Below, in pieces: positions 39,290-57,146 of a stretch of 64,000 nucleotides of DNA. The translations under genes and the position numbers were made by a program. Below the pieces are notes generated by a model. It made no database searches. It saw only the letters and a list, made by a program, of their open reading frames with translations, and had not been told where the DNA came from. Source of the stretch: Tepidiforma bonchosmolovskayae (GTDB lineage: Bacteria; Chloroflexota; Dehalococcoidia; Tepidiformales; Tepidiformaceae); contig NZ_CP042829.1 of the NCBI RefSeq assembly GCF_008838325.1, forward strand, positions 2,108,001-2,172,000, read 5' to 3'. Within the stretch, counting starts at the first letter, position 1; every line of letters starts with the position of its first letter.

Positions 39290-40210
39290 TTACGCCGCCA
39301 CGTCGTCCGCCACCCGCACCAGCACGCCGGCCGCTTCCGCGAGCACCCGCGCGCGCTCGTCAATCGCCCGCCCGCCGACCGCGGCCCGTGCCCGGTAGCC
39401 CGCCTTCTCCAGCGCCTTCGCCCTGGTCAGGGCGCGGCTCACATCGTCCGCATCGATCGTCCGCGAAATCTCCACCGCAAGCAGCAGGGGACGCTGGGCC
39501 GGGTCGGACCGGTCCCGCCCCTCGATGATCAGGTCGAGCGCCCGCAGCTCCACCAGCTCCCGTTCATCGAGTTTGCCCGCATCCTCCGCCTCATCGACCA
39601 GGTCGAGATCGCTGAGGGTCACCACTCTCGGCTTTCGCAGCCACTTGCCAAAGAGTGACGGCGCCTTTCGCTCGAACCGCATCTCGTAGAGATAGCCGAG
39701 CTCGGCGTCGAGCCGCTGATGTGCCCGGTTGATATCCACGCGCATAACGCCGACTGCCTGTACCAGCTCGTCGACCCGGGCGGCCAGCTGGTCGACGCGC
39801 GCGGTCAGCTCCTCAAGCCGCGCAGCAAGTTCATCGACGCGTTGCTCGGTTCGCCGCTGGGCCTCCGCCAGCTCATCCACGCGCCGCCCGAGCTCTTCGA
39901 GCCGCTGTTCGGTGCGCCGCTGGGCCTCCGCCAGCTCCTCGACCCGTTGCTCGGTGCGCCGCTGGGCCTCGGCAAGCTCGTCCACGCGCCGCCCGAGTTC
40001 TTCGAGCCGCTGCTCGGTGCGCCGCTGGGCCTCCGCCAGCTCCTCGAGCCGCTGTTCGGTGCGCCGCTGGGCCTCCGCCAGCTCCTCCACAATCCGAGGC
40101 AGCCGGTCGAATTCGTCCCCGAGGATCAGCGGGCGCAGCTGCGCCCGCCACTCCGGCCGCTCGGCCAGCAGGCGGATCAGGTCCTGCACATCCTCAACCG
40201 TGAATGCCAC
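39290..40210 (-). CDS. Coiled-coil repeat protein with a possible nuclease-like C-terminus
   Basis: This 306-residue protein has an N-terminal helical segment (1-40), a heptad-rich coiled coil (41-155) and a C-terminal alpha/beta domain (165-306). The coil is built from ELAEAQRRTEQR units and VDEL spacers; 35-residue units are tandemly duplicated at residues 55-89 and 90-124. The C-terminus (LDLIIEG, LLLAVEISRTIDADDVSRAL) resembles DUF3782-type PD-(D/E)XK domains, but Ser replaces the catalytic Lys after the Glu. The coil should make it an oligomer. Function unknown. Confidence 0.75.
   Translation of the reverse strand: MAFTVEDVQDLIRLLAERPEWRAQLRPLILGDEFDRLPRIVEELAEAQRRTEQRLEELAEAQRRTEQRLEELGRRVDELAEAQRRTEQRVEELAEAQRRTEQRLEELGRRVDELAEAQRRTEQRVDELAARLEELTARVDQLAARVDELVQAVGVMRVDINRAHQRLDAELGYLYEMRFERKAPSLFGKWLRKPRVVTLSDLDLVDEAEDAGKLDERELVELRALDLIIEGRDRSDPAQRPLLLAVEISRTIDADDVSRALTRAKALEKAGYRARAAVGGRAIDERARVLAEAAGVLVRVADDVAA
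39839..40090 (-). repeat. 42/105-bp tandem repeats inside the coiled-coil gene
   Basis: The repeats encode residues 41-124 of the coiled-coil protein. Two near-identical 105-bp units (39839-39943 and 39944-40048) each hold two 14-residue units and one heptad. High DNA identity points to recent expansion by slippage or unequal recombination. Confidence 0.9.
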
Positions 40211-44611: not shown

Positions 44612-45310
44612 TTAACGCCGCGTTTCGGCCGAAGTTCCCGTCTTCGCCGGCTGCACCACCCAGATCTTGTTCGCCACCGGTGTCCCCAGCACGATGCGCC
44701 GCTCGCCCACCCGCACCGTGATCGTCCCGCGGTAGGGCGCCACCTCCTCGATAACAACCTTCACCCCAGGGCGAATCCCTTCCTCGTCGAAGAACCGGAG
44801 CAGCTGCTCATCCTCCTCGAAGACGCGGTCGATCTCCGCCTCCTGCCCCTCCTTCAGGTCGCCCAGCGTCACCATCGATAGCTTCTGCGGTGCCCCCGGC
44901 CCCGGGATCGGATAGCCGAACGGGCTCTTCTTCGGCCGCCCCAGCATCTCGTACAGGTTCCGCTCCGTGATGTCCGAGATCCCGTGCTCCAGCAGGTGCG
45001 CTTCCTCGTACGCCCGCCACCAGTCCACCTTCAGCACGTCGGTCAGCAGGCACTCCGCAAGGCGATGCCGCCGCACCATCTGCTCCGCCCTTCGGAAGCC
45101 CTCCGGCGTCAGGTGAATCACCTTCTTCGCATCGATGTGCACCAGCCCGTCCCGCATCAGCCGCTTCAGCATCCCCGCAACTGATGGCGGCGTAATCTCC
45201 AGCCGGTCCGCAAGCCGCACGGCGATGACGTCCTGGCCCTCGTCGTGGCTCATCCGGTAAATCGCCGTCAAATAGTCGTCGCTGGCAACATTCCTGACCT
45301 GTTTCGGCAT
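44612..45310 (-). CDS. DtxR/MntR family metal-dependent regulator
   Basis: This 232-residue protein begins MPKQVRNVASDDYLTAIYRM, a winged helix typical of the DtxR family. The dimerisation/metal region reads AYEEAHLLEHGISDITERNL, and HR LAECLL adds a His and Cys. His replaces Cys at the first ligand site of DtxR, which is closer to the manganese regulators. The C-terminus holds an SH3-like FeoA domain. It would repress metal uptake genes when metal is plentiful. It diverges from the PadR gene across an 80-base spacer. Confidence 0.9.
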   Translation of the reverse strand: MPKQVRNVASDDYLTAIYRMSHDEGQDVIAVRLADRLEITPPSVAGMLKRLMRDGLVHIDAKKVIHLTPEGFRRAEQMVRRHRLAECLLTDVLKVDWWRAYEEAHLLEHGISDITERNLYEMLGRPKKSPFGYPIPGPGAPQKLSMVTLGDLKEGQEAEIDRVFEEDEQLLRFFDEEGIRPGVKVVIEEVAPYRGTITVRVGERRIVLGTPVANKIWVVQPAKTGTSAETRR

Positions 45311-45390
45311 GGCACGCCGATCATGGCATGCCGCCTGCTCCCGGGAAATTCCGCTGGCGCATCCCGGCCACACCCGCGAAACTCGCGGAG

Positions 45391-45951
45391 ATGTCGCTCC
45401 GCTTCGCCATCCTCGGCCTCCTGACCGCCGGCGAACTCTCCGGCTACGAAATCACCCGCCGCTTCGAGCAGTCGGTCGGCTACTTCTGGCACGCCCGCGC
45501 CCAGCAGATCTACCCCGAGCTCGCCCGCCTCGAATCCGAAGGCCTCGTCGCCGGCCGCGCCGTCCAGCAGACCGGCAGGCCCGACAAACGCGTCTACACC
45601 GTCACCGCCCGCGGTCTCGCAGAGCTCGCCGATTGGGTGGTCACGCCGTCCCCGCTCACCCTCACCAAGGATGAGTTCCTCGTCAAAGTCTGGAGCTACG
45701 GCCTCGTCGAGCCGGAGCGCGCCATCGAGGCCCTCACCGCGCACCGCCGCCAGCAGGAGGAGCGCCTGGCCGCCTACCGCGCCATCGAAGCCGCGTTCGA
45801 AGGCGCCGACCCCGTGACCGTGCCGCCGGCCTTCCTCGGGCCATACCTCACCCTCCGCGCCGGCATCCAGTTCATCGAGGCGTTCCTCGCCTGGGCCGTC
45901 GAGGCCGAGCGCATCCTCCGCGCCCGCACAGAATCCCCGCCGGCACCGTGA
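45391..45951 (+). CDS. PadR family transcriptional regulator
   Basis: This 186-residue protein begins MSLRFAILGLLTAGELSGYE, the standard PadR winged-helix N-terminus, with PELARLESEGLVAGR and GRPDKRVYTVT next. The C-terminal helical domain (about residues 95-175) is that of the VirR-type PadR. Ligand unknown. The ATG at 45391 lies next to a GGAG; ATG 45328 would add an unconserved 21-residue N-terminus. It points towards the ferritin-like pair but a small divergent gene lies between. Confidence 0.9.
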   Translation: MSLRFAILGLLTAGELSGYEITRRFEQSVGYFWHARAQQIYPELARLESEGLVAGRAVQQTGRPDKRVYTVTARGLAELADWVVTPSPLTLTKDEFLVKVWSYGLVEPERAIEALTAHRRQQEERLAAYRAIEAAFEGADPVTVPPAFLGPYLTLRAGIQFIEAFLAWAVEAERILRARTESPPAP

Positions 45952-46162: not shown

Positions 46163-46359
46163 GCTCGTGTCCTCCCGGTTTCTACCACAGGTATCGGCTG
46201 CGACGGCCCGGTTGATAAGAGGTAACGCCCGTCCACCTGCACCTGGGTTTCGAAGCTTCGCTCCCACCAAATTTACTCGCCGGTAATTGCCGCTCTTCCA
46301 GCGCGCTCGGGCAGGGTGTAGGCTATCGCGAACATAGACGCCGGCCCCAGGAGACCCCC

Positions 46360-47403
46360 ATGGCAGCCAATCCCGCCACCGAATCCAGCCTCGACCTGTC
46401 CTGGCTCGACCTCTACGAGGACGCCACCTCCGCCGAGCCCGGCAAGAAGGGCCTCACCCTCAAGGAGATCAACCTCGGCCGCTACGCCGATACCGCCCGC
46501 GGTGCCGGCGACATGACCTACCGGATGCGCGGCGCAATTCCCCGTCCCGGCGCCCAGCGCTTCGGCCCCAACTACCAGTCCAAGGCCGATGTCTGGGCCG
46601 AAAACTGCCTCATGCTCTACGAGGAGGCCACCCAGCGCCAGTGGAGCTCCGCCCGCGACATCCCCTGGGATACCCTTGAGCCCCTCCCCGACGAGCTCGA
46701 GCGGGCCATGTGCCAGCTCGCCACCATGCTCACCGAGGTCGAGTTCATCGCCGGCGACGTCCCCGGCCAGTGGATGCCCTTCGTCTCCGCCCAGGACTTC
46801 GAAGCCGGCCTCTTCCTCATGACCCAGATCATGGACGAGGCCCGCCACACCGACGTCTTCCGCAAGCGCGCGCTTGCCAACGGCGGCGGCCTCCTTGCCC
46901 AGGGTGCCGGCCTCGGTCTCCGCACCCTCATCGAAGCCCGCGACTTCACCGAAATGTCGGTCCTCATGCACGTCCAGGCTGAAGGTTTCGTCCAGTCGAT
47001 GTTCCGCATGGGCGAACTCATCGGCCAGACTGAGGCCGATAAGCGCATCTTCCGCATGAGCGCCCAGGACGAGTCCCGCCACCTCGCCTTCGGTGTCATG
47101 CACCTCAAGTACGTGCTCGATACGGAGCCCGAGCGCCGCGAAGAAATCCACCACTACCTCGACAAGGCCGAGGGCGACGCCGCCGGCGGCGGCTCCGGCG
47201 ACGTCACCTTCCCGCCCGTCTTCGAAGCCCTCTGCATCCTTCTCGGCGGCGGCGTCGATAAGTTCGACGAAGGTCTCCAGAAGTTCCTCCTCCTCCGCAA
47301 ACGGCAGATCAACGAGTACGTCCACCGCCTCACCGTCGCCGGCCTCGGCGACCGCCGCCAGCGTCTCGGCCCCCTGATGGCCCAGTTCCTCGACCCGGCC
47401 TGA
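46360..47403 (+). CDS. Ferritin-like di-iron protein (active member of a pair)
   Basis: This 347-residue all-helical protein has a complete di-iron ligand set: Glu88/89 in LYEEATQRQW, Glu160 and His163 in MDEARHTD, Glu208 in VQAEGF, and Glu238 and His241 in AQDESRH. This is the pattern of R2-like and AurF-like oxygenases. It would bind two irons and activate oxygen, on an unknown substrate. AGGAGA precedes the ATG. A related gene lies 73 bases downstream on the same strand. Known R2 proteins have a radical Tyr near the site; whether one is present here needs a model. Confidence 0.8.
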   Translation: MAANPATESSLDLSWLDLYEDATSAEPGKKGLTLKEINLGRYADTARGAGDMTYRMRGAIPRPGAQRFGPNYQSKADVWAENCLMLYEEATQRQWSSARDIPWDTLEPLPDELERAMCQLATMLTEVEFIAGDVPGQWMPFVSAQDFEAGLFLMTQIMDEARHTDVFRKRALANGGGLLAQGAGLGLRTLIEARDFTEMSVLMHVQAEGFVQSMFRMGELIGQTEADKRIFRMSAQDESRHLAFGVMHLKYVLDTEPERREEIHHYLDKAEGDAAGGGSGDVTFPPVFEALCILLGGGVDKFDEGLQKFLLLRKRQINEYVHRLTVAGLGDRRQRLGPLMAQFLDPA

Positions 47404-47476
47404 CGCCGGCCCACCGCCTGACGACCGCGGCGGGGCGAACTGCCCCGCCTGTCCAACCCCGCCCGGAGGTACCCCC

Positions 47477-48697
47477 ATGTCGACAGGAGAAGCTCTCGCC
47501 CGCGCCGCCCAGGCCGCCCAGGTTGAAATCCCCCAGGAGGCCCGCGACCGCGCCCGTGAACTCGGCTGGGAAGACGGCCTCATCGAACTCGCCCTCGCCA
47601 AAGGCCACAGCCTCCAGGTCATCTGGCAGGCCCTCCGCGGCGGCGTCGATGGCAAGCGCGCCAAAGAGTTCCTCCAGGGCGGCCAGGCCGCCATCCCCCG
47701 CGACCTCTCCTGGATGCACGTCCCCACTGAGTGGGGCATCCGCGCCCGTCCGAAAGACCCCGCCATGGGCCTCACCATCGCCGACCTCATGATCGGCACC
47801 TACGGCGATGTCCCCGACGTCTGGACCAACCGCTCGGAAATCGCCCGCGGCTCCTACCCCAATCCCGTCGTCGAAGACATGGGGTACACCATCTTCGAAA
47901 AGGCGCTCGTCTGGGCCGACTGCTGCATCCCGCTCTACGAAGAGGCCATCCGCGACCGCTGGGTCTCGGCCACCGACCTCAACTGGAACAGCCTCGAGCC
48001 GCTCCCGCACGACATCGAGCGCGCCGTCTGCCAGTTCATGACCGAACACTCCGAGCGGGCCTACGTCGCCGGCGCGCTCTGGTCCGGCTGGCTCCCCGAA
48101 ATCTCCTACGGCTTCCTCGAACTGAAGCTCTTCCTCTCCACCGTCATCTACGACCTCGCCCGCCACAGCGAGGCCTTCCGCAAGCGCGCCCTTGCCAACG
48201 GCGGCGGCCTCGGCCTGCAGGCGCCCACCGACTTCTCCCGGGTCGCCCGCGAAGCTCGCTCCTTCCCCGAGCTTGCTGCCATCCTCTTCGTCCAGGACAG
48301 CATGCTCTACACCCTCTTCTCCCACGGCGACGAGTTCGCCCAGAACCAGCTCGAGCGCGACCTCTACCGCCTCGTCGCCCGCGACCGCAAGCGGATGCTC
48401 GACTACCACATCGAGCGCCTGAAGCACATGCTCTTCAAACTCCCCGACCGCCGCGACGAGCAGAACCTCTACTTCAACAAGGCCGAATCCCGCATGGGCA
48501 AAGAGTGGCTCGACCCTGCCGTCAGCGAACCCCTCGCGATCCTCCTCGGCGGCGGCGTCGACAACATCGCGCGCGGCCGCGAGAAGCTGCGGGAGCTCCG
48601 CAAAGCCCAGGTCGACAACTACCTCGAGCACCTGCGCCAGGCCACCTTCATCCGCAAGCACATCAACGGCCGGCTGGAGCAGGCCGCCCAGGCCTGA
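47477..48697 (+). CDS. Ferritin-like paralogue with lost di-iron ligands
   Basis: This 406-residue protein aligns over most of its length with the preceding one, sharing LYEEAIRDRW, ARHSEAFRKRALANGGG and the LGGGVD segment. Four of six metal ligands are changed: Glu160 to Leu227, Glu208 to Ser275, Glu238 to Arg304 and His241 to Met307. Glu156 and His230 are kept. It also has about 70 extra N-terminal residues forming helices. It cannot bind a di-iron centre in the normal way, so it probably serves as a structural or regulatory partner. It may be a heterodimer subunit. Confidence 0.78.
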   Translation: MSTGEALARAAQAAQVEIPQEARDRARELGWEDGLIELALAKGHSLQVIWQALRGGVDGKRAKEFLQGGQAAIPRDLSWMHVPTEWGIRARPKDPAMGLTIADLMIGTYGDVPDVWTNRSEIARGSYPNPVVEDMGYTIFEKALVWADCCIPLYEEAIRDRWVSATDLNWNSLEPLPHDIERAVCQFMTEHSERAYVAGALWSGWLPEISYGFLELKLFLSTVIYDLARHSEAFRKRALANGGGLGLQAPTDFSRVAREARSFPELAAILFVQDSMLYTLFSHGDEFAQNQLERDLYRLVARDRKRMLDYHIERLKHMLFKLPDRRDEQNLYFNKAESRMGKEWLDPAVSEPLAILLGGGVDNIARGREKLRELRKAQVDNYLEHLRQATFIRKHINGRLEQAAQA

Positions 48698-48717: not shown

Positions 48718-48744
48718 CCGGGGCTCCCCGCAGGGGAGCCCCGG
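48718..48744 (+). terminator. Hairpin after the ferritin-like pair
   Basis: A perfect 12-bp GC stem (48718-48729 with 48733-48744) with a 3-base loop lies 20 bases past the stop. No T-run follows, so it may act by structure alone. Confidence 0.6.
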
Positions 48745-50342: not shown

Positions 50343-51518
50343 CTACCCCGCCAGCCGCCGTCCTTTCCATTCAGCCCGCCCGCCCCGCCACGCCGCCAGC
50401 GACCGCACCGCCGCAAACGCCCCTGCAGCGGCGACCAGCGGTCCCTCGGCCGCCAGCCGAAGCGGCAGCCCGAATTTCCGCGCGACGGCCAGCCAGGTCG
50501 CCGCCCCAAGGACGAGTTCGGCCCCACCGGCCGCCGCGGCGCGCCGCCGCCCGGCAGCGGCGCCGATTACCAGCGCGAGCGCCGGCCACGTGAACGCCCG
50601 CAGCAGCCAGGCCCAGGCCAGCACGTAGGGCACGGTCCGCCCGCCCATCGCCGGGAACAGGTTCTTCTCCAGCCCCGCCAGAGCCTCGCTCCGGCCCCGG
50701 TACATCCGGCACGCGCTCACCTCGCGGCCCGACGCAACCCGCCACCGCAGGCCCGCGCGCGTTGCCAGCCGGGCGAACGCCACATCCTCTGCCGCCGCAC
50801 TCCGGACCGCAGCGTGGCCGCCCAGCCGGCCGTACGCCTCCCGCCGGAAGGCAAGCACCTGCCCGACGGCGCCCGCCGCGAATGCCAGCCCGAACCGCTG
50901 CGCTCCGGCCGGCGAGAGGTGCGTCATCAGCGCCCACGGGATCAGCGGCACCGTCCACCGCTCCCACGCGCCGCCGAGCTCCTGCCGCGGCACCACCGAA
51001 AGCAGGTCCAGCCGCTCCCGCTCCATCGCCGCAGCCACGGCAGCGACCATCCCCGGCGCGTGCCACGTGTCCGCGTCCGCGAACACCAGCAGCTCCGCAT
51101 CGGCCGCGGCCTCCGCCAGCTGCGCGCAGGCCCACGGTTTCCCCAGCCACCCGTCGGGCAGTGGGCTCCCGCGAAGCACGGTCAGCCGTCCGTCCTCCTG
51201 CTGGAGCCGCGCGAGAATGTCCGCCGTTCTGTCGGTCGAACCGTCGTCGAGAACGATCACCCGCAGCGCCTCCCACTCCTGCGCCAGCAGCGAACGCACG
51301 CACCGCCCGATTCCCCGCTCCTCGTTCCGGGCCGGCACCAGGACCGCGACGGCCGGCCTCCACGCAGCCGGGCGTGCGCCCCCGTCCAGCACCGGCGTGC
51401 GCCGCAGGTTCCAGGCCGTGTTCGCACCTACCGCCGCCAGGTAGATGAGCACACCGCGGTCGTTGCGGAGCGCCCGCGTCACTGCTCCGGAGGTGCGCCC
51501 GGCCAGCCGGCGGATCAT
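50343..51518 (-). CDS. Family 2 glycosyltransferase in the carotenoid operon (CrtQ-like)
   Basis: This 391-residue protein has VAVLVPARNEERGIGRCVRS, then VLDDGSTDRT and LVFADADTW (DxD). It has hydrophobic segments near the N-terminus (about 25-40) and at the C-terminus, so it is membrane-attached. The architecture and context match CrtQ-type glycosyltransferases that add sugar to carotenoids. It overlaps the plsY-like stop by ATGA. It may alternatively act on hopanoids or glycolipids. It is the last gene of the operon. Confidence 0.85.
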   Translation of the reverse strand: MIRRLAGRTSGAVTRALRNDRGVLIYLAAVGANTAWNLRRTPVLDGGARPAAWRPAVAVLVPARNEERGIGRCVRSLLAQEWEALRVIVLDDGSTDRTADILARLQQEDGRLTVLRGSPLPDGWLGKPWACAQLAEAAADAELLVFADADTWHAPGMVAAVAAAMERERLDLLSVVPRQELGGAWERWTVPLIPWALMTHLSPAGAQRFGLAFAAGAVGQVLAFRREAYGRLGGHAAVRSAAAEDVAFARLATRAGLRWRVASGREVSACRMYRGRSEALAGLEKNLFPAMGGRTVPYVLAWAWLLRAFTWPALALVIGAAAGRRRAAAAGGAELVLGAATWLAVARKFGLPLRLAAEGPLVAAAGAFAAVRSLAAWRGGRAEWKGRRLAG

Positions 51519-52090
51519 CGCTCCCGCACGGGCGGCCAGCCGAACCGCGCCCGGTACGCCCACGCCAGCGAGGCCGTCGTCAGAAGCCACGCCGCGAACG
51601 ACTCCGCCCGCCGTTGCGGCCGGTTGAGGAGCGCCGCAACCAGCAGCGCCGGCGCGCCCGCCGCCACTGCCCACCCTTCCCGCAGGTGCAGCACCCCGTG
51701 CCCGAGCGCCAGCGCGGCCCCGAACGCCAGCGCAGACCACGGCCCGCCGAGCGCCGTCCAGGCCCCGAATGTGGCGGCCAGCCCCTTCCCGCCCCGCCCG
51801 CCCAGTAGCGGGCTCGTCCGGTGCCCGAGCACGGGCGCCACCGCCGCAGCGACCAGCTCCGGGCCGCGCGTCCCCCGCCGCAGCGCGAGCGCCACCGGAG
51901 CCGCCCCCTTCGCCCAGTCGGCCACGGCAGCGGCCGCACCGGCCAGACGTCCTCCTCCCTTCCAGGCGTTGGCCGCGCCCGGGTTCCCATCGCCCACCGC
52001 CCGGATATCCGCGCCGCGCAGCCGCGCCGCCCATGCCGCGAACGGCAGCGCCCCGAGCGCGTACCCCGCCAGCGCCCATCCTCCCCTCAT
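51515..52090 (-). CDS. PlsY-like glycerol-3-phosphate acyltransferase, divergent subtype
   Basis: This 191-residue membrane protein has about five to six hydrophobic helices. It carries GDGNPGAANAW instead of the classical GSGNXGATNXXR of PlsY, and GHRTSPLLGGRGGKG in place of GHXFPXXLKFKGGKG. It therefore belongs to a diverged subclass. PlsY moves acyl groups from acyl-phosphate to glycerol-3-phosphate. The position between lycopene cyclase and a glycosyltransferase, with ATGA overlaps on both sides, suggests that it acylates a carotenoid glycoside, as CrtO does in staphyloxanthin synthesis. This is inference. Confidence 0.82.
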   Translation of the reverse strand: MRGGWALAGYALGALPFAAWAARLRGADIRAVGDGNPGAANAWKGGGRLAGAAAAVADWAKGAAPVALALRRGTRGPELVAAAVAPVLGHRTSPLLGGRGGKGLAATFGAWTALGGPWSALAFGAALALGHGVLHLREGWAVAAGAPALLVAALLNRPQRRAESFAAWLLTTASLAWAYRARFGWPPVRER

Positions 52091-52869
52091 GCCGGTCCCG
52101 CCTCCGCGGCCCGTCTCCGGATCGCCGCGGCGATCGTCCGCGCCCGCTCACGGCCTTCGGGCGCCAGCAGCAGCGTCAGCCCGACCGCGACCAGGCCGTT
52201 CGTGACCAGGAAGAACACGAACTCTTCAACCGGCAGCCCGCCCGGCAGAAAGACCTCCGTCGACGTCCGCTCAGCGATGTGCCAGATGCCGTCGTTGATG
52301 GCAATCGTATCGGCCGCCGCCAGGTACAGCGTCGGGACGCCGAACCCCGGCACCACCACCCGCCACCAGCGAACCAGGATGTCCGCGCCGAACCCGAGCT
52401 GCAGCGCCAGCGGCGGGGCAGCCCACGCGAGGATCAGCCCGAGATACCGCATCGACTCCGGCCCCGCAATCGCCAGTAAGCCGCCCAGCGCAACCGCCAG
52501 CAGGGCTGCCGCCCCAGCCGTGCGGAGGGCCGTGCCGCCCCCTCCGCTGCCAGCGTTCGGCTGGACGCGCAGCAGCAGCCCCACCCACAGGCCGGTCATT
52601 ACCGTCTGCAGGACGAAGAAACAGTACTCCTCGAGGGGCACCCACCCCAGCCGGATCCCCCACGTGCGCTCCTCTGGATACGTCCATGTCTCCGAGGCCA
52701 CGAGGTAGTTGTCCCACGGTGTCGTGTACAGCACCGCGACTGTGGCGAGCAGCGCGATGCCGCCCGCGAGCGCCCGCCGCGGCACCGGCGCCGGCCAGCG
52801 GAGGTGTGCCGCGAGCAGCGCCGCGATCGGCGGCAGCAGGAACAGCCCGAGAAACGCGCCGTAGCTCAT
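52087..52869 (-). CDS. crtY: Lycopene cyclase, fused CrtYc/CrtYd type
   Basis: This 260-residue membrane protein has about seven hydrophobic helices and two related halves, each with a PxEE motif: VPLEEYCFFVLQT in the first and LPVEEFVFFLVTN in the second. The two halves correspond to the separate CrtYc and CrtYd subunits of actinobacterial and archaeal cyclases. It converts lycopene to a beta-ring carotene. It is coupled upstream to the P450 and downstream to the plsY-like gene. Confidence 0.92.
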   Translation of the reverse strand: MSYGAFLGLFLLPPIAALLAAHLRWPAPVPRRALAGGIALLATVAVLYTTPWDNYLVASETWTYPEERTWGIRLGWVPLEEYCFFVLQTVMTGLWVGLLLRVQPNAGSGGGGTALRTAGAAALLAVALGGLLAIAGPESMRYLGLILAWAAPPLALQLGFGADILVRWWRVVVPGFGVPTLYLAAADTIAINDGIWHIAERTSTEVFLPGGLPVEEFVFFLVTNGLVAVGLTLLLAPEGRERARTIAAAIRRRAAEAGPA

Positions 52870-54176
52870 CGCCGCCGCACCTTCAGCCGCCCGCCCCGCG
52901 GCTCCAGCGTCGCCCCCATCGCCCCCCGCAGCGGCCGCCGCGTGACCGCCACGTCCACCAGCTGGAGAATCCGCGCCAGCACCAGCCGCCCCTCGAGGTT
53001 CGCGAACCCCGCGCCGATGCAGTTCCGCGGCCCGCCGCCGAACGGCGCATACGTGAACGGCCCCGGCGCGCCGCCGTTTAGCCACCGTCCCGGGTCGAAG
53101 ACGTCCGCCCGAGCCCAAATCGCCGGGTCGCGCTGAACCAGCAGGTACGAGAGCATCACCCGCTGCCCCGCCGGCAGCCGGTGGCCGTCCAGCTCGACCT
53201 CTTGCACCGTGCGCCGCCCGCCGACGTGAATCGGCGGCCACAGCCGCAGCGCCTCCTTGAGCACGGCGTCGATGACCGGCAGCCCGTCGCCCCTGAGCGC
53301 CGCGAGCCCCTCCCCGGCCGGCGCCGCCCGCGCTTCGCGCGCCGCCCGCGCCAGCCATTCCGGGTGCCGCGCCAGCAGATGGAGCGCCCACGAAAGCTGC
53401 GCCGTGCTCGTATCGTGCCCCGCAATCAGCATCGTCAGGGCGTGGTCCCGCACCCGCTCGGTATCGAATTCCGCCAGCAGCAGGTCGAGGAGCGTCGCGC
53501 CGGGCTCGCCGTGCTCCGCACGCCACGCCATCACCCGCCGGACGTGCTCCTCCAGCAGGGCGGCCCTTCGCGGCGGCGGCCCGGCCCGCCCCCGCAGCAC
53601 CCACAGCCCCGGGCCGATGTAGCGCAGCGCCGCGTGGAGCCCGGGGAGCGTCGCCTCCAGCTCCTCCTGCCCGAGCCGGTAGCCGAAGAACACCTGCTCG
53701 AACACCCGCCACGCAATCCGCCGCATCGCCTCAACCGGCTCGATGAAGCCCTCCGCCGGCCACCGCCCCACCTCTTCATCAACAATCGCCACGATCGCCG
53801 AGGCCTGCTCCCGCAGCCGAGCCGGTTCGAACGCCGGCGCCATCGCCTGCCGGGCCCGGTCGTGCTCCTCGCCGTCCGTCACGAGGATGCTCCGCCGGAA
53901 CAGCCGCGCCACCGGGTCGCCCTCCGGCCGCCACGAGAACGCCTCGCGTCGTTCGACCAGCGCCTCCCGCAGTCCGCCCGGGGAGGCCACCACCACCGGC
54001 CGGAACCGCCCGAAGCCCAGTTCGAACACGGGCCCCAGCCCGGCCCGCGCCACCTCCAGCGCTTCGTACAGCCCCGCCGTTCCGTGACGCAGCGTCCAGA
54101 GGGCGCGGAGGCCGTCCCGCGGCGAAAGCTGGTCGGTCCGCGGGAGGGTGCGCCCCGGGGGCTGCGTCCCTGCCAT
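52866..54176 (-). CDS. Cytochrome P450 in the carotenoid operon
   Basis: This 436-residue P450 has LIAGHDTSTAQLSW (I-helix with Thr), the ExxR motif in LKEALRLWPP, and the haem-Cys signature FGGGPRNCIGAGFA. It resembles the CYP175-type carotenoid hydroxylases of Thermus. In this operon it probably hydroxylates or ketolates the beta-ring made by the cyclase. Its ATG (54176) is 43 bases after the crtI stop and its stop overlaps the cyclase start. A redox partner is not in the window. Confidence 0.9.
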   Translation of the reverse strand: MAGTQPPGRTLPRTDQLSPRDGLRALWTLRHGTAGLYEALEVARAGLGPVFELGFGRFRPVVVASPGGLREALVERREAFSWRPEGDPVARLFRRSILVTDGEEHDRARQAMAPAFEPARLREQASAIVAIVDEEVGRWPAEGFIEPVEAMRRIAWRVFEQVFFGYRLGQEELEATLPGLHAALRYIGPGLWVLRGRAGPPPRRAALLEEHVRRVMAWRAEHGEPGATLLDLLLAEFDTERVRDHALTMLIAGHDTSTAQLSWALHLLARHPEWLARAAREARAAPAGEGLAALRGDGLPVIDAVLKEALRLWPPIHVGGRRTVQEVELDGHRLPAGQRVMLSYLLVQRDPAIWARADVFDPGRWLNGGAPGPFTYAPFGGGPRNCIGAGFANLEGRLVLARILQLVDVAVTRRPLRGAMGATLEPRGGRLKVRRR

Positions 54177-54219
54177 GCCGTTCAGCGTGGAGCCCTCCCG
54201 GGCCGCGCGCAACCGCCCG

Positions 54220-55710
54220 TCACCACCCCTCCTCCTCCGCGATGATCCGTTCCACCACCTTCGCCGAGGAGAGTACCCCCGGCACCCCGGCGCCCGGGTG
54301 GGTCCCGGCGCCGACAAAGTACAGGTTGTCGATATCCTCCGACCGGTTGTGCGGGCGGAACCACGCCGACTGCCAGAGCGTCGGCTGCACGCTGAACCCC
54401 GTACCGAGGTAGGTATTCAGGTTGTCCCGGAAGTGCCGCGGGTCGACCGTGTGCTCCGCAACGATGTGGCTCCGCAGCCCCGGCAGGTACTCCCGCTCGA
54501 GGAACTCGAGGATCAGCTCACGGTACTTCGGCGCCATCCGCTCCCAGTCAGTGGGAGAACCGAGGTGCGGCACCGGCGAAAGCGCGTAGAACGCCTCGTG
54601 CCCCGGCGGCGCTCCGCTCGGGTCCGTCATCGTCGGCACGTGCACGTACAGCGAGAAGTCCCGCGGAAGCCCCTTCGCCCGGAAGATGTCCCGGATCAGC
54701 CCCTTGTACCGCTCGCTCAGGATGATGTTGTGGTGCACCAGCGGCGTATCGCGGTAGAGCCGGTCCGTCCCGAAATACACCACGAAGAGCGACATGCTGT
54801 ACGCCGTCAGCTTCCGGTAGCGCAGGTCCGAATTCCGCCAGCTCCGGTGCTCCGGGTCGATGAGCGACAGGTACGCCTGCGGAACGTCCCCGTTGCAGAT
54901 CACGCGGTCCGCCTCCAGCACGTCGCCGTTCGCGAGCTCCACGCCCGTTGCCCGCCGCCCCCGCACGCGGATGCGCGTCACCTCGCTCCCCAGCCGCACC
55001 TCGCCGCCGAGCTCCTTGAACAGCCGGACGAGCGCATCGACCAGCGCGCCGGTCCCTCCCTGCGCATACCACACGCCCCACTCGCGCTCGAGGTGGTGAA
55101 TCATCGCGTAAATCGACGATGCGACGAACGGGTTCCCGCCGATCAGCAGCGGGTGGAACGTAAAGCACCGCCGCAGGAACGGGTCCCGGATGTACTGCGA
55201 AACAAACCCGTAGACCGACCGGTACGACTGCAGGCGCAGCAGGTCCGGCGCCACCTTGAGCATGTCGGTCACGTGCAGGAACGGCGCAGCCGCCAGCTCC
55301 ACAAACCCTTTCTGGAAAATCGCGCGGCTCGCCTCAAGAAACCGCCGGTACCCCTCGATGTCTGCCGGATTCCACCGCTCTATCTGCCGGGCCACATCGT
55401 CGAAGTTCCCGTTGTACTCGAACCATCGGCCGCGGGCGTCGAAAATCCGGTAGAACGGGTCGACCGGCAGCAGCGTCGCGCAGTCCTCGAACCTCCGTCC
55501 TGCCAGCTCGAACAGCTCCTCGAAGAGGAACGGCGCCGTAATCACCGTCGGCCCGCCGTCGAAGCGGAACCCGTCCACCTCGACGGGAGCGGCCCGCCCG
55601 CCCGCCTTCGGCTGCTTCTCCACCAGCGTGACGGCGTCGCCCCGCGCGGCCATCCGGACCGCGGCCGCCAGCCCGCCGAACCCGCTGCCGATCACCACCG
55701 TGCGCTTCAC
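54220..55710 (-). CDS. crtI: Phytoene desaturase (CrtI)
   Basis: This 496-residue FAD protein begins VKRTVVIGSGFGGLAAAVRM. FAD motif VVIGSGFGG and the conserved C-terminal signature VGAGTHPGAGVPGVLSSAK identify carotenoid desaturases. It introduces four double bonds into phytoene to give lycopene. The GTG start (55710) overlaps the stop of crtB (GTGA), so the two are coupled. Confidence 0.95.
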   Translation of the reverse strand: MKRTVVIGSGFGGLAAAVRMAARGDAVTLVEKQPKAGGRAAPVEVDGFRFDGGPTVITAPFLFEELFELAGRRFEDCATLLPVDPFYRIFDARGRWFEYNGNFDDVARQIERWNPADIEGYRRFLEASRAIFQKGFVELAAAPFLHVTDMLKVAPDLLRLQSYRSVYGFVSQYIRDPFLRRCFTFHPLLIGGNPFVASSIYAMIHHLEREWGVWYAQGGTGALVDALVRLFKELGGEVRLGSEVTRIRVRGRRATGVELANGDVLEADRVICNGDVPQAYLSLIDPEHRSWRNSDLRYRKLTAYSMSLFVVYFGTDRLYRDTPLVHHNIILSERYKGLIRDIFRAKGLPRDFSLYVHVPTMTDPSGAPPGHEAFYALSPVPHLGSPTDWERMAPKYRELILEFLEREYLPGLRSHIVAEHTVDPRHFRDNLNTYLGTGFSVQPTLWQSAWFRPHNRSEDIDNLYFVGAGTHPGAGVPGVLSSAKVVERIIAEEEGW

Positions 55711-56687
55711 GCTTCTGCTCCCTTCGGCGGCTTCGCCCGGTACGCCCGCCACGCGACGAGCGGCAGCAGGGCCGCGCGCCGCCACCCGGGCACGCTCGGC
55801 CGGGCCGTGAACACGTCGTAGTCGCGCCGCTCGACCTCGTCGAGAATCCGCGAGTACAGCTCCAGCGCTGCCGTCACCGCCAGCCGCCCGTCACGGTGGA
55901 GCAGTCCCACGCCCGGCCGCGCCACGGCGTACAGCCGGCGGGCCCGCGCAACCTGGAACCGCATCAGCGCCCGCCAGCGGTCGTCCACCCGGCCGGCCCC
56001 GATCTGCTCCTCGGTCACCCCGAACCGCTCGAGCTCCTCCCGCGGGAGGTACACCCGCCCGTTCCGCCAGTCCTCGGCCACGTCGCGGAGGATGTTCGTC
56101 AACTGCATCGCGACGCCCAGCCGGATGGCGTAGAGAGACGGGTCGCCCGACCAGCCGATGATCCGCATCGACATCAGGCCGACGGTCGACGCCACGCCGT
56201 AGCAGTACCGGGCCAGCTCATCAAAGGTGTCGTACCCCCGGTGGCCGAGGTCGTCGGCCAGCGCATCGACGAGCTGCTTTGCAAAGTGCGCCGGGATCCC
56301 GAACGCCGCCCGCGTGGCTGCCCACGCCTGCAGCACCGGGTCATCGCCGGCCGGGGCTTCCCCCGTCCCGGCGCGTCCCCACTCCCGGAGCCGGAGCTCC
56401 CGGTCCTCGCCGGGCTCGTCGACGATGTCGTCGGCAACGCGGCAGTAGGCGTAGAGCGCCCGGACCGCCCGCCGCTTCTCGACCGGCAGCAGCCGTGTGG
56501 CCGTGTAGAACGTTTGGCTGTGCTCCTTCGTCACCGCCGCGCACCGCGCGAACGCGGCGTCCAGCGCTCCGACGTCGGCCGGCCCGTCCGCTGCCGGCGG
56601 CGTGCCGCTGCCCTCACCATGCGCCATCGCGAGGAGCGCGCGCTCCCACGCCTCGGTCGCTCCTGCTGGAGGGCTCGCCGGCTTCAC
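55707..56687 (-). CDS. crtB: Phytoene synthase (CrtB)
   Basis: This 326-residue prenyl-condensing enzyme has AYCRVADDIVDEPGED, the first Asp-rich motif of CrtB, and QLTNILRDVAEDWRNGRVYLP, the second. HSQTFYTATRLLP is also typical. It joins two geranylgeranyl diphosphates to give phytoene and starts the operon crtB-crtI-P450-crtY-plsY-like-GT2. The GTG start (56687) follows a TAGCGT element by 7 bases, so the message may be leaderless. Confidence 0.95.
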   Translation of the reverse strand: MKPASPPAGATEAWERALLAMAHGEGSGTPPAADGPADVGALDAAFARCAAVTKEHSQTFYTATRLLPVEKRRAVRALYAYCRVADDIVDEPGEDRELRLREWGRAGTGEAPAGDDPVLQAWAATRAAFGIPAHFAKQLVDALADDLGHRGYDTFDELARYCYGVASTVGLMSMRIIGWSGDPSLYAIRLGVAMQLTNILRDVAEDWRNGRVYLPREELERFGVTEEQIGAGRVDDRWRALMRFQVARARRLYAVARPGVGLLHRDGRLAVTAALELYSRILDEVERRDYDVFTARPSVPGWRRAALLPLVAWRAYRAKPPKGAEA

Positions 56688-56780
56688 CCGTCCTACGCTA
56701 CCGCCGCCGGACGCCCCCCGCCAGTAAGCGGCTCAACCAGCCGGCGGCGCTGCTCCCCCGGCTCGCTTGCAGGCGGAGGC

Positions 56781-57146
56781 TCAGCAATGCCAGTGTCGAA
56801 CGAGCCCGTTCTGGCCGGCCGAACAGGCAAGCTCGAACGAGGCCAGCTGCACCGCCACCATCGTCACTGCCAGCGCCACTACCAGGAGCGTCGCCCAGGC
56901 CAGCCCCAGCCCGTTAATCCATCGCCCGGCGGCAAACCCCGCAATCGCCCCGAGGAGCAGGAGGCCGCCGTGGAGCGCCAGGTACACCTGGTCACGGACC
57001 GCCGCATCGCGGTCGCTCTGCACCTCGCTCACCCCCAGGGTTGCGCGCAGCGCGGCCAGGTACCCCGCCGTCAGCAGCAGGAAGAGCAGGAGGGCGAGCC
57101 ATGCCCGCCCTCCCGAATGTCGCGGTTCCCGCTCCATCGTCGTCAC
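56781..57146 (-). CDS. Small membrane protein of unknown function
   Basis: This 121-residue protein has three hydrophobic helices (about residues 15-35, 55-75 and 82-103), a basic N-terminus and a Cys-containing C-terminal tail. No family is recognised. It lies between the carotenoid operon and the thioredoxin-fold gene. It could help with pigment membrane organisation but no motif supports that. Confidence 0.65.
   Translation of the reverse strand: MTTMEREPRHSGGRAWLALLLFLLLTAGYLAALRATLGVSEVQSDRDAAVRDQVYLALHGGLLLLGAIAGFAAGRWINGLGLAWATLLVVALAVTMVAVQLASFELACSAGQNGLVRHWHC

Follow-up and report, generated by a model that had tools for sequence, protein, structure and literature searches.

The window, the whole 64,000 nt stretch analyzed here, belongs to a single-contig 2.75 Mb genome of the heat-loving genus Tepidiforma (Chloroflexota, class Dehalococcoidia) and contains two neighboring genes on the forward strand, which we call A and B, separated by a gap of 73 nt (Table 1). 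Over 319 aligned residues their products are 38% identical (E 4e-68), which makes them true homologues. A preliminary description of this DNA had already recognized the two adjacent homologous open reading frames, the RKRALANGGG motif common to both proteins, and ~70 additional N-terminal residues in B, and in these points it was accurate. That extension of B consists of a ~45 residue helical motif that is absent from A and occurs in 0 to ~4 tandem copies in relatives (L085, L088, L091, L203-L210 and other loci). Two B proteins contain a SinI-like match (E ~1e-6) inside this extension, and two B reading frames (L170:5480-6865, L222:4570-5913) extend at their 5' ends into sequence that resembles by eye a SnoaL/NTF2-type domain, either a real fusion or a start-site artefact. 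The inverted repeat within the A-B gap could possibly form an RNA hairpin, and the longer hairpin downstream of B is likely the end of the A-B transcript.

Table 1. Features of the A-B locus (window coordinates)
Feature	Position	Strand	Size or basis
Shine-Dalgarno-like AGGAG, 5' of A	46349..46353	+	sequence
Gene A, putative catalytic subunit, R2-like dimetal protein	46360..47403	+	347 aa
8 bp perfect inverted repeat in A-B gap, no T run	47429..47449	+	
Shine-Dalgarno-like GGAGG, 5' of B	47465..47469	+	sequence
Gene B, ligand-less paralogue (putative pseudoenzyme)	47477..48697	+	406 aa
N-terminal extension of B (~residues 1-75), one helical-motif copy	47477..47701	+	helices in model
12 bp perfect hairpin, 20 nt past B stop, no T run	48718..48744	+	

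Just upstream of A lie two divergent, overlapping regulator genes, one for a DtxR/MntR-type metal-dependent repressor with a FeoA domain (44615-45373, reverse strand) and one for a PadR protein (45328-45951, forward strand). Ten A/B-family loci retain the repressor gene, and the two regulators may control the A-B pair through metal supply. Downstream of the pair, the region 50343-57000 (reverse strand) resembles by eye a carotenoid cluster (phytoene synthase, desaturase, P450, glycosyltransferase). Elsewhere in the window, a reading frame at 39290-40210 (reverse strand) contains tandem repeats of the type RLEELAEAQRRTEQ, a coiled coil, and a C-terminal part that appears nuclease-like by eye.

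Alignment of all homologues reveals a complete 4-Glu/2-His metal ligand set in A, comprising E128, E160, H163, E208, E238 and H241. In the structure model these residues are carried by four consecutive bundle helices (111-141, 144-173, 196-216, 225-255), such that A presents the ferritin-like dimetal carboxylate arrangement of a four-helix bundle with E, ExxH, E and ExxH, together with Foldseek matches to such proteins. E128 is invariant in A and aligns with the first Glu of R2lox. The preliminary description had overlooked this first bundle-helix ligand and named Glu88/89 in its place, residues of a short helix (83-92) that is not part of the four-helix bundle, with E88 conserved in B too; the five remaining ligands that it listed all belong to the invariant set. 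The equivalent sites in B are Ala195, Leu227, His230, Asp274, Arg304 and Met307, meaning that four ligands are lost outright, one Glu is replaced by Asp, and one His is retained. An earlier reading of the losses as Leu, Ser, Arg and Met is correct for Leu227, Arg304 and Met307, but its Ser is the residue following Asp274.

This difference extends across the family. Among non-redundant complete proteins from ~100 genomes, the six-ligand set is intact in 119 of 120 A, whereas none of 92 B retains more than one of the four Glu, so ligand loss in B is not a matter of chance, and the search for B homologues with intact ligands that had been suggested as a check returned none. B keeps the ferritin-like fold in the model and lacks an intact ligand set in 92 of 92 cases; it is a fold member of the ferritin-like superfamily and not a dimetal enzyme. 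One might suppose instead that B is some other metal or cofactor protein, in which the kept His together with Asp or with Lys/Arg replacements forms a new site, since equivalents of H241 or H163 are retained in many B and the residues conserved only in B include Arg at position 94 and Ser at 209 (A numbering). The replacements, however, vary by B clade (Ala, Gly, Leu, Tyr, Lys, Arg and others), and no common new ligand set is therefore visible; we give this explanation a very small chance.

Scans against Pfam and NCBIfam found no family above cut-off for either A or B. The nearest curated models to A by sequence are those of R2lox (PDB 4hr0, 6f6f, 7qbk), which has the same four-helix dimetal fold and the same 4-Glu/2-His pattern, and even this match to the NCBIfam R2lox models is sub-threshold (32.5 bits versus a cut-off of 194). 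R2lox binds a fatty acid, and its reference positions are V72, Y162, E69 and E167 (PMC6060897). Compared with R2lox, A is without the cross-linking Val and Tyr, the E+3 position being Ala131 and the E-5 position Leu, Met, Val or Ile203 (32/32 A), and it has both a ligand-less partner and a companion with the sterol carrier protein 2 (SCP2) fold. The missing cross-link residues, along with a score far under the cut-offs, rule out A as an R2lox.

Two other families were considered and rejected for A. In class Ia ribonucleotide reductase (RNR) R2 proteins the radical Tyr is found four residues past the first His ligand; this place is occupied in A by Phe167, invariant in 32 aligned A proteins, which excludes a class I RNR R2. 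AurF N-oxygenases use a seventh ligand, a His four residues before the ExxH Glu, where A has Ser234, and the match to PF11583 is weak and confined to 1 of 32 A. The azoxy synthase VlmB, for which we know of no ligand-less paralogue, is among the best fold matches of A, at 17% identity in the fold alignment. VlmB and its homologues (PDB 6d9f, 8wvr) are also the best solved match to A by profile (E 2.9e-6). VlmB acts together with VlmO in valanimycin biosynthesis (PMC11705231). The corresponding profile search with B matched no solved structure.

In one relative (L009), A and B occupy a single reading frame, which made it possible to obtain one chain with a short linker by reading the intervening stop codons as Gly. 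The alignment for this A-linker-B model consisted of 12 fused rows plus B rows; A-only rows were excluded because a mixed alignment had placed A rows on the B half. The resulting model has a pLDDT of 88.5 and a pTM of 0.88, with a disordered linker. Simple arithmetic indicates that an undefined orientation of two such halves would limit pTM to ~0.54, and that 0.88 needs an inter-domain error of ~3 Å, a value to be read knowing that the network may impose the R2 homodimer arrangement on any two such domains. Foldseek places the fold with the methane monooxygenase hydroxylase alpha subunit, VlmB, R2lox and RNR R2. The linked chain is as expected for a defined A:B heterodimer, which is accordingly a predicted one, and the confident relative placement of its halves favors the pairing for which the preliminary description had suggested a structure prediction as a check.

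B follows A directly, on the same strand, at 66 non-redundant places, and a second pair in the same order is present in the Tepidiforma host genome (1629297-1631553). Another 40 A genes have no adjacent B, and in the genomes of many of these a B is located elsewhere. Members of the A/B family were detected in 115 of the 393 genomes of class Dehalococcoidia sampled; a plasmid search gave one distant match only. Co-occurrence was tallied in 34 genomes, of which all 31 with a main-clade A (or, for G122, with a second type of pair described below) encode at least one B, and the three without B (G305, G225, G079) carry only older, single A types. A and B numbers are mostly equal per genome, some genomes having more A than B. 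Pairwise distances in A and B are correlated (mirror trees, r=0.87 for 59 pairs; shuffled maximum 0.12), a statistic that, like the co-occurrence counts, is inflated by shared descent. The co-occurrence and order that had been proposed as checks on the pairing are thus borne out, and the expectation of linkage in relatives is borne out in part: A and B lie apart in several families, but both are present there and B stays beside a third gene, C.

Among nearest relatives, dN/dS is ~0.17 for B and ~0.016 for A, and by this measure B is under purifying selection, looser than that on A. Faster evolution than A and the loss of the metal site would also suit a functionless B, the product of a pseudogene in decay, but we attach practically no credence to this, as dN/dS is well under 1, B frames are open across the class and conserved over dozens of genera, the loss is ancient, and 25 residues are conserved across both A and B, with some conserved in B alone. 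A broken frame was observed on the A side, in Tepidiforma flava (NZ_CP115149.1; L011:5091-6333), where the first pair has an open B but an A gene broken up among several frames, and where the locus is ~400 nt longer than in relatives. The split A is either a pseudogene or a sequencing error; the second pair of that genome is intact (L242).

Gene C encodes a protein of ~147 aa. Of 43 non-redundant places, 39 have it immediately downstream of B and 3 downstream of A. It is present in 112 of the 393 class genomes, 109 of these being among the 115 with A/B (Fisher p 2e-85, inflated by kinship). The A/B pair described earlier holds as a pair, but its third component had been overlooked. Tepidiforma has a single C (1471556-1471978; L224:6542-6976, reverse strand) that is unlinked to A/B; a divergently oriented short-chain dehydrogenase gene lies beside it and a phosphotriesterase-like gene nearby. 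Searches of Pfam and NCBIfam with C produced no match reaching threshold, curated SCP2 models included, and a profile search of the PDB gave an SCP2 match that is suggestive only (E 0.15). The structure model of C (pLDDT 93.8, pTM 0.88) has a Foldseek top ten made up of SCP2 or UbiJ-SCP2 proteins, with 1wfr as the best (E 2.5e-4), followed by UbiJ-SCP2 and AF1534, and rabbit SCP2 lower in the list. On the evidence of this model C has the sterol carrier protein 2 fold, as in UbiJ-SCP2 (6h6o, 6h6p) and 1wfr; likeness by eye and the PDB profile did not suffice for the assignment. C differs from the known SCP2-fold proteins in being tied to an R2-like enzyme, a pairing that we did not find described; the literature consulted, mainly openly accessible, described neither the A-B pair nor any R2-like enzyme accompanied by SCP2.

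B is the neighbor common to both layouts, A-B in Tepidiforma and B-C where A has moved, and we therefore propose that C docks on the B half. The same B-C linkage can be read differently, with A a homodimer like R2lox and B an independent protein that has put the fold to another use, for instance serving C as a ligand-binding or carrier partner. B does stay with C while A lies elsewhere in several families, the older A proteins work without any B, and B evolves faster than A; against this are the fixed A-B order in most lineages, the co-duplication and mirror trees of the two genes, the presence of A wherever B is found in the genomes tallied, and the confident A-B placement in the model, and on balance we consider a homodimeric A unlikely. 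Conserved neighbors beyond C were also sought. CoA-transferase III, luciferase-like monooxygenase, thiolase, S49 peptidase and other genes recur around A/B loci at varying positions, and for this reason we name neither an electron donor nor a substrate. Apparently conserved open reading frames opposite A were rejected as antisense artefacts.

In phylogenetic trees, main A and main B descend from a single duplication, one on either side, and their sub-clades match, which implies that the pair was later duplicated as a unit. Six intact A genes (L080, L215, L216, L221, L238, L239) form an older branch, having C directly downstream and no B. This A+C type occurs in the same class, and even in the same genome, as A-B pairs, and it likely represents the ancestral state before A was duplicated. 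In another family (G122, G458) we identified an A-B'-C operon with a ligand-less B' that groups with the local intact A proteins rather than with main B, a single origin being rejected (p-AU 0.004). The ligand-less partner thus likely arose independently at least twice, a conclusion that we grade as likely and not certain because B' sits on a long branch. In other Chloroflexota (L109, L111, L112, L113), intact single homologues of a more distant kind share two conserved neighbors of their own (e.g. L113:1836-2996, L112:5200-6687).

The preliminary description knew of no two-component system of this type, but precedents exist in other families. In methane monooxygenase, the catalytic alpha subunit MmoX is joined by a homologous beta subunit without a metal site, MmoY. 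The hydroxylase of this enzyme (1fyz) is the best fold match of the A-B model; A/B differs in having an SCP2 companion. Membership of A/B in the bacterial multicomponent monooxygenases was rejected, there being no hydroxylase Pfam match in 32 A and 33 B. A search of the genome for MmoB/DmpM effectors gave no match, but neither did its controls. The second precedent, in another family and with another reaction than A/B, is the asymmetric R2 dimer of yeast Rnr2/Rnr4, in which Rnr2 can be activated only with the help of Rnr4, a subunit with three iron ligands lost (PMC2704937). Since Rnr4 aids formation of the Rnr2 metal site (PMC2704937), B might by the same token be a transient regulator, inhibitor or metal chaperone of A rather than a fixed subunit, and its variable N-terminal repeat could bind another partner. 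Such a role appears decidedly improbable given that the model predicts the two halves to be placed as in a stable dimer and that ligand loss apparently occurred twice at the same gene position, and it leaves the B-C linkage unexplained.

The reading of A as catalytic subunit and B as pseudoenzyme, first put forward in the preliminary description, is strengthened by the ligand counts and the conserved gene order. We consider it probable that A and B form a heterodimeric, asymmetric dimetal oxygenase that uses the SCP2-type carrier C. In such an enzyme A would bind an Fe/Fe or Mn/Fe dinuclear site through its six ligands and, judging from its fold family, would activate O2 with electrons reaching it from a separate donor. 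B, with the same fold and without the ability to hold metals, would be the structural and docking half that keeps A in active form. C would bind a hydrophobic substrate and present it to A:B, mainly by way of a putative docking site on B. The set would have arisen from an intact A+C ancestor in which A was duplicated and one copy lost its metal site, apparently at least twice. A hydrophobic class of substrate is weakly suggested by the SCP2 fold of C, the fatty-acid binding of R2lox, and the recurrent CoA- and lipid-type neighbors.

The principle of an inactive partner is already known in ferritin-like enzymes, and the actual novelty is the larger unit of A, B and C, which is a new family. At close to an even chance, we would go further and see in it a new family of asymmetric dimetal oxygenases, found across Dehalococcoidia and in a small number of other Chloroflexota. 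A homodimeric ancestor would have given rise to a ligand-less paralogue on two or more occasions, and this paralogue would dock an SCP2-type carrier, making a three-component system for hydrophobic substrates unlike any described. If true, methane-type monooxygenases and yeast ribonucleotide reductase would be joined by one more family of two-metal enzymes that has kept a silenced half. Since there were apparently two or more such losses, and since members of the same bacterial family still carry A+C without the duplication, the question of why an inactive twin is kept becomes directly testable by comparison. The SCP2-type companion suggests a route by which poorly soluble substrates may reach a dimetal site, and the set as a whole offers a first handle on genes without a Pfam family that occur in ~29% of sampled Dehalococcoidia genomes.
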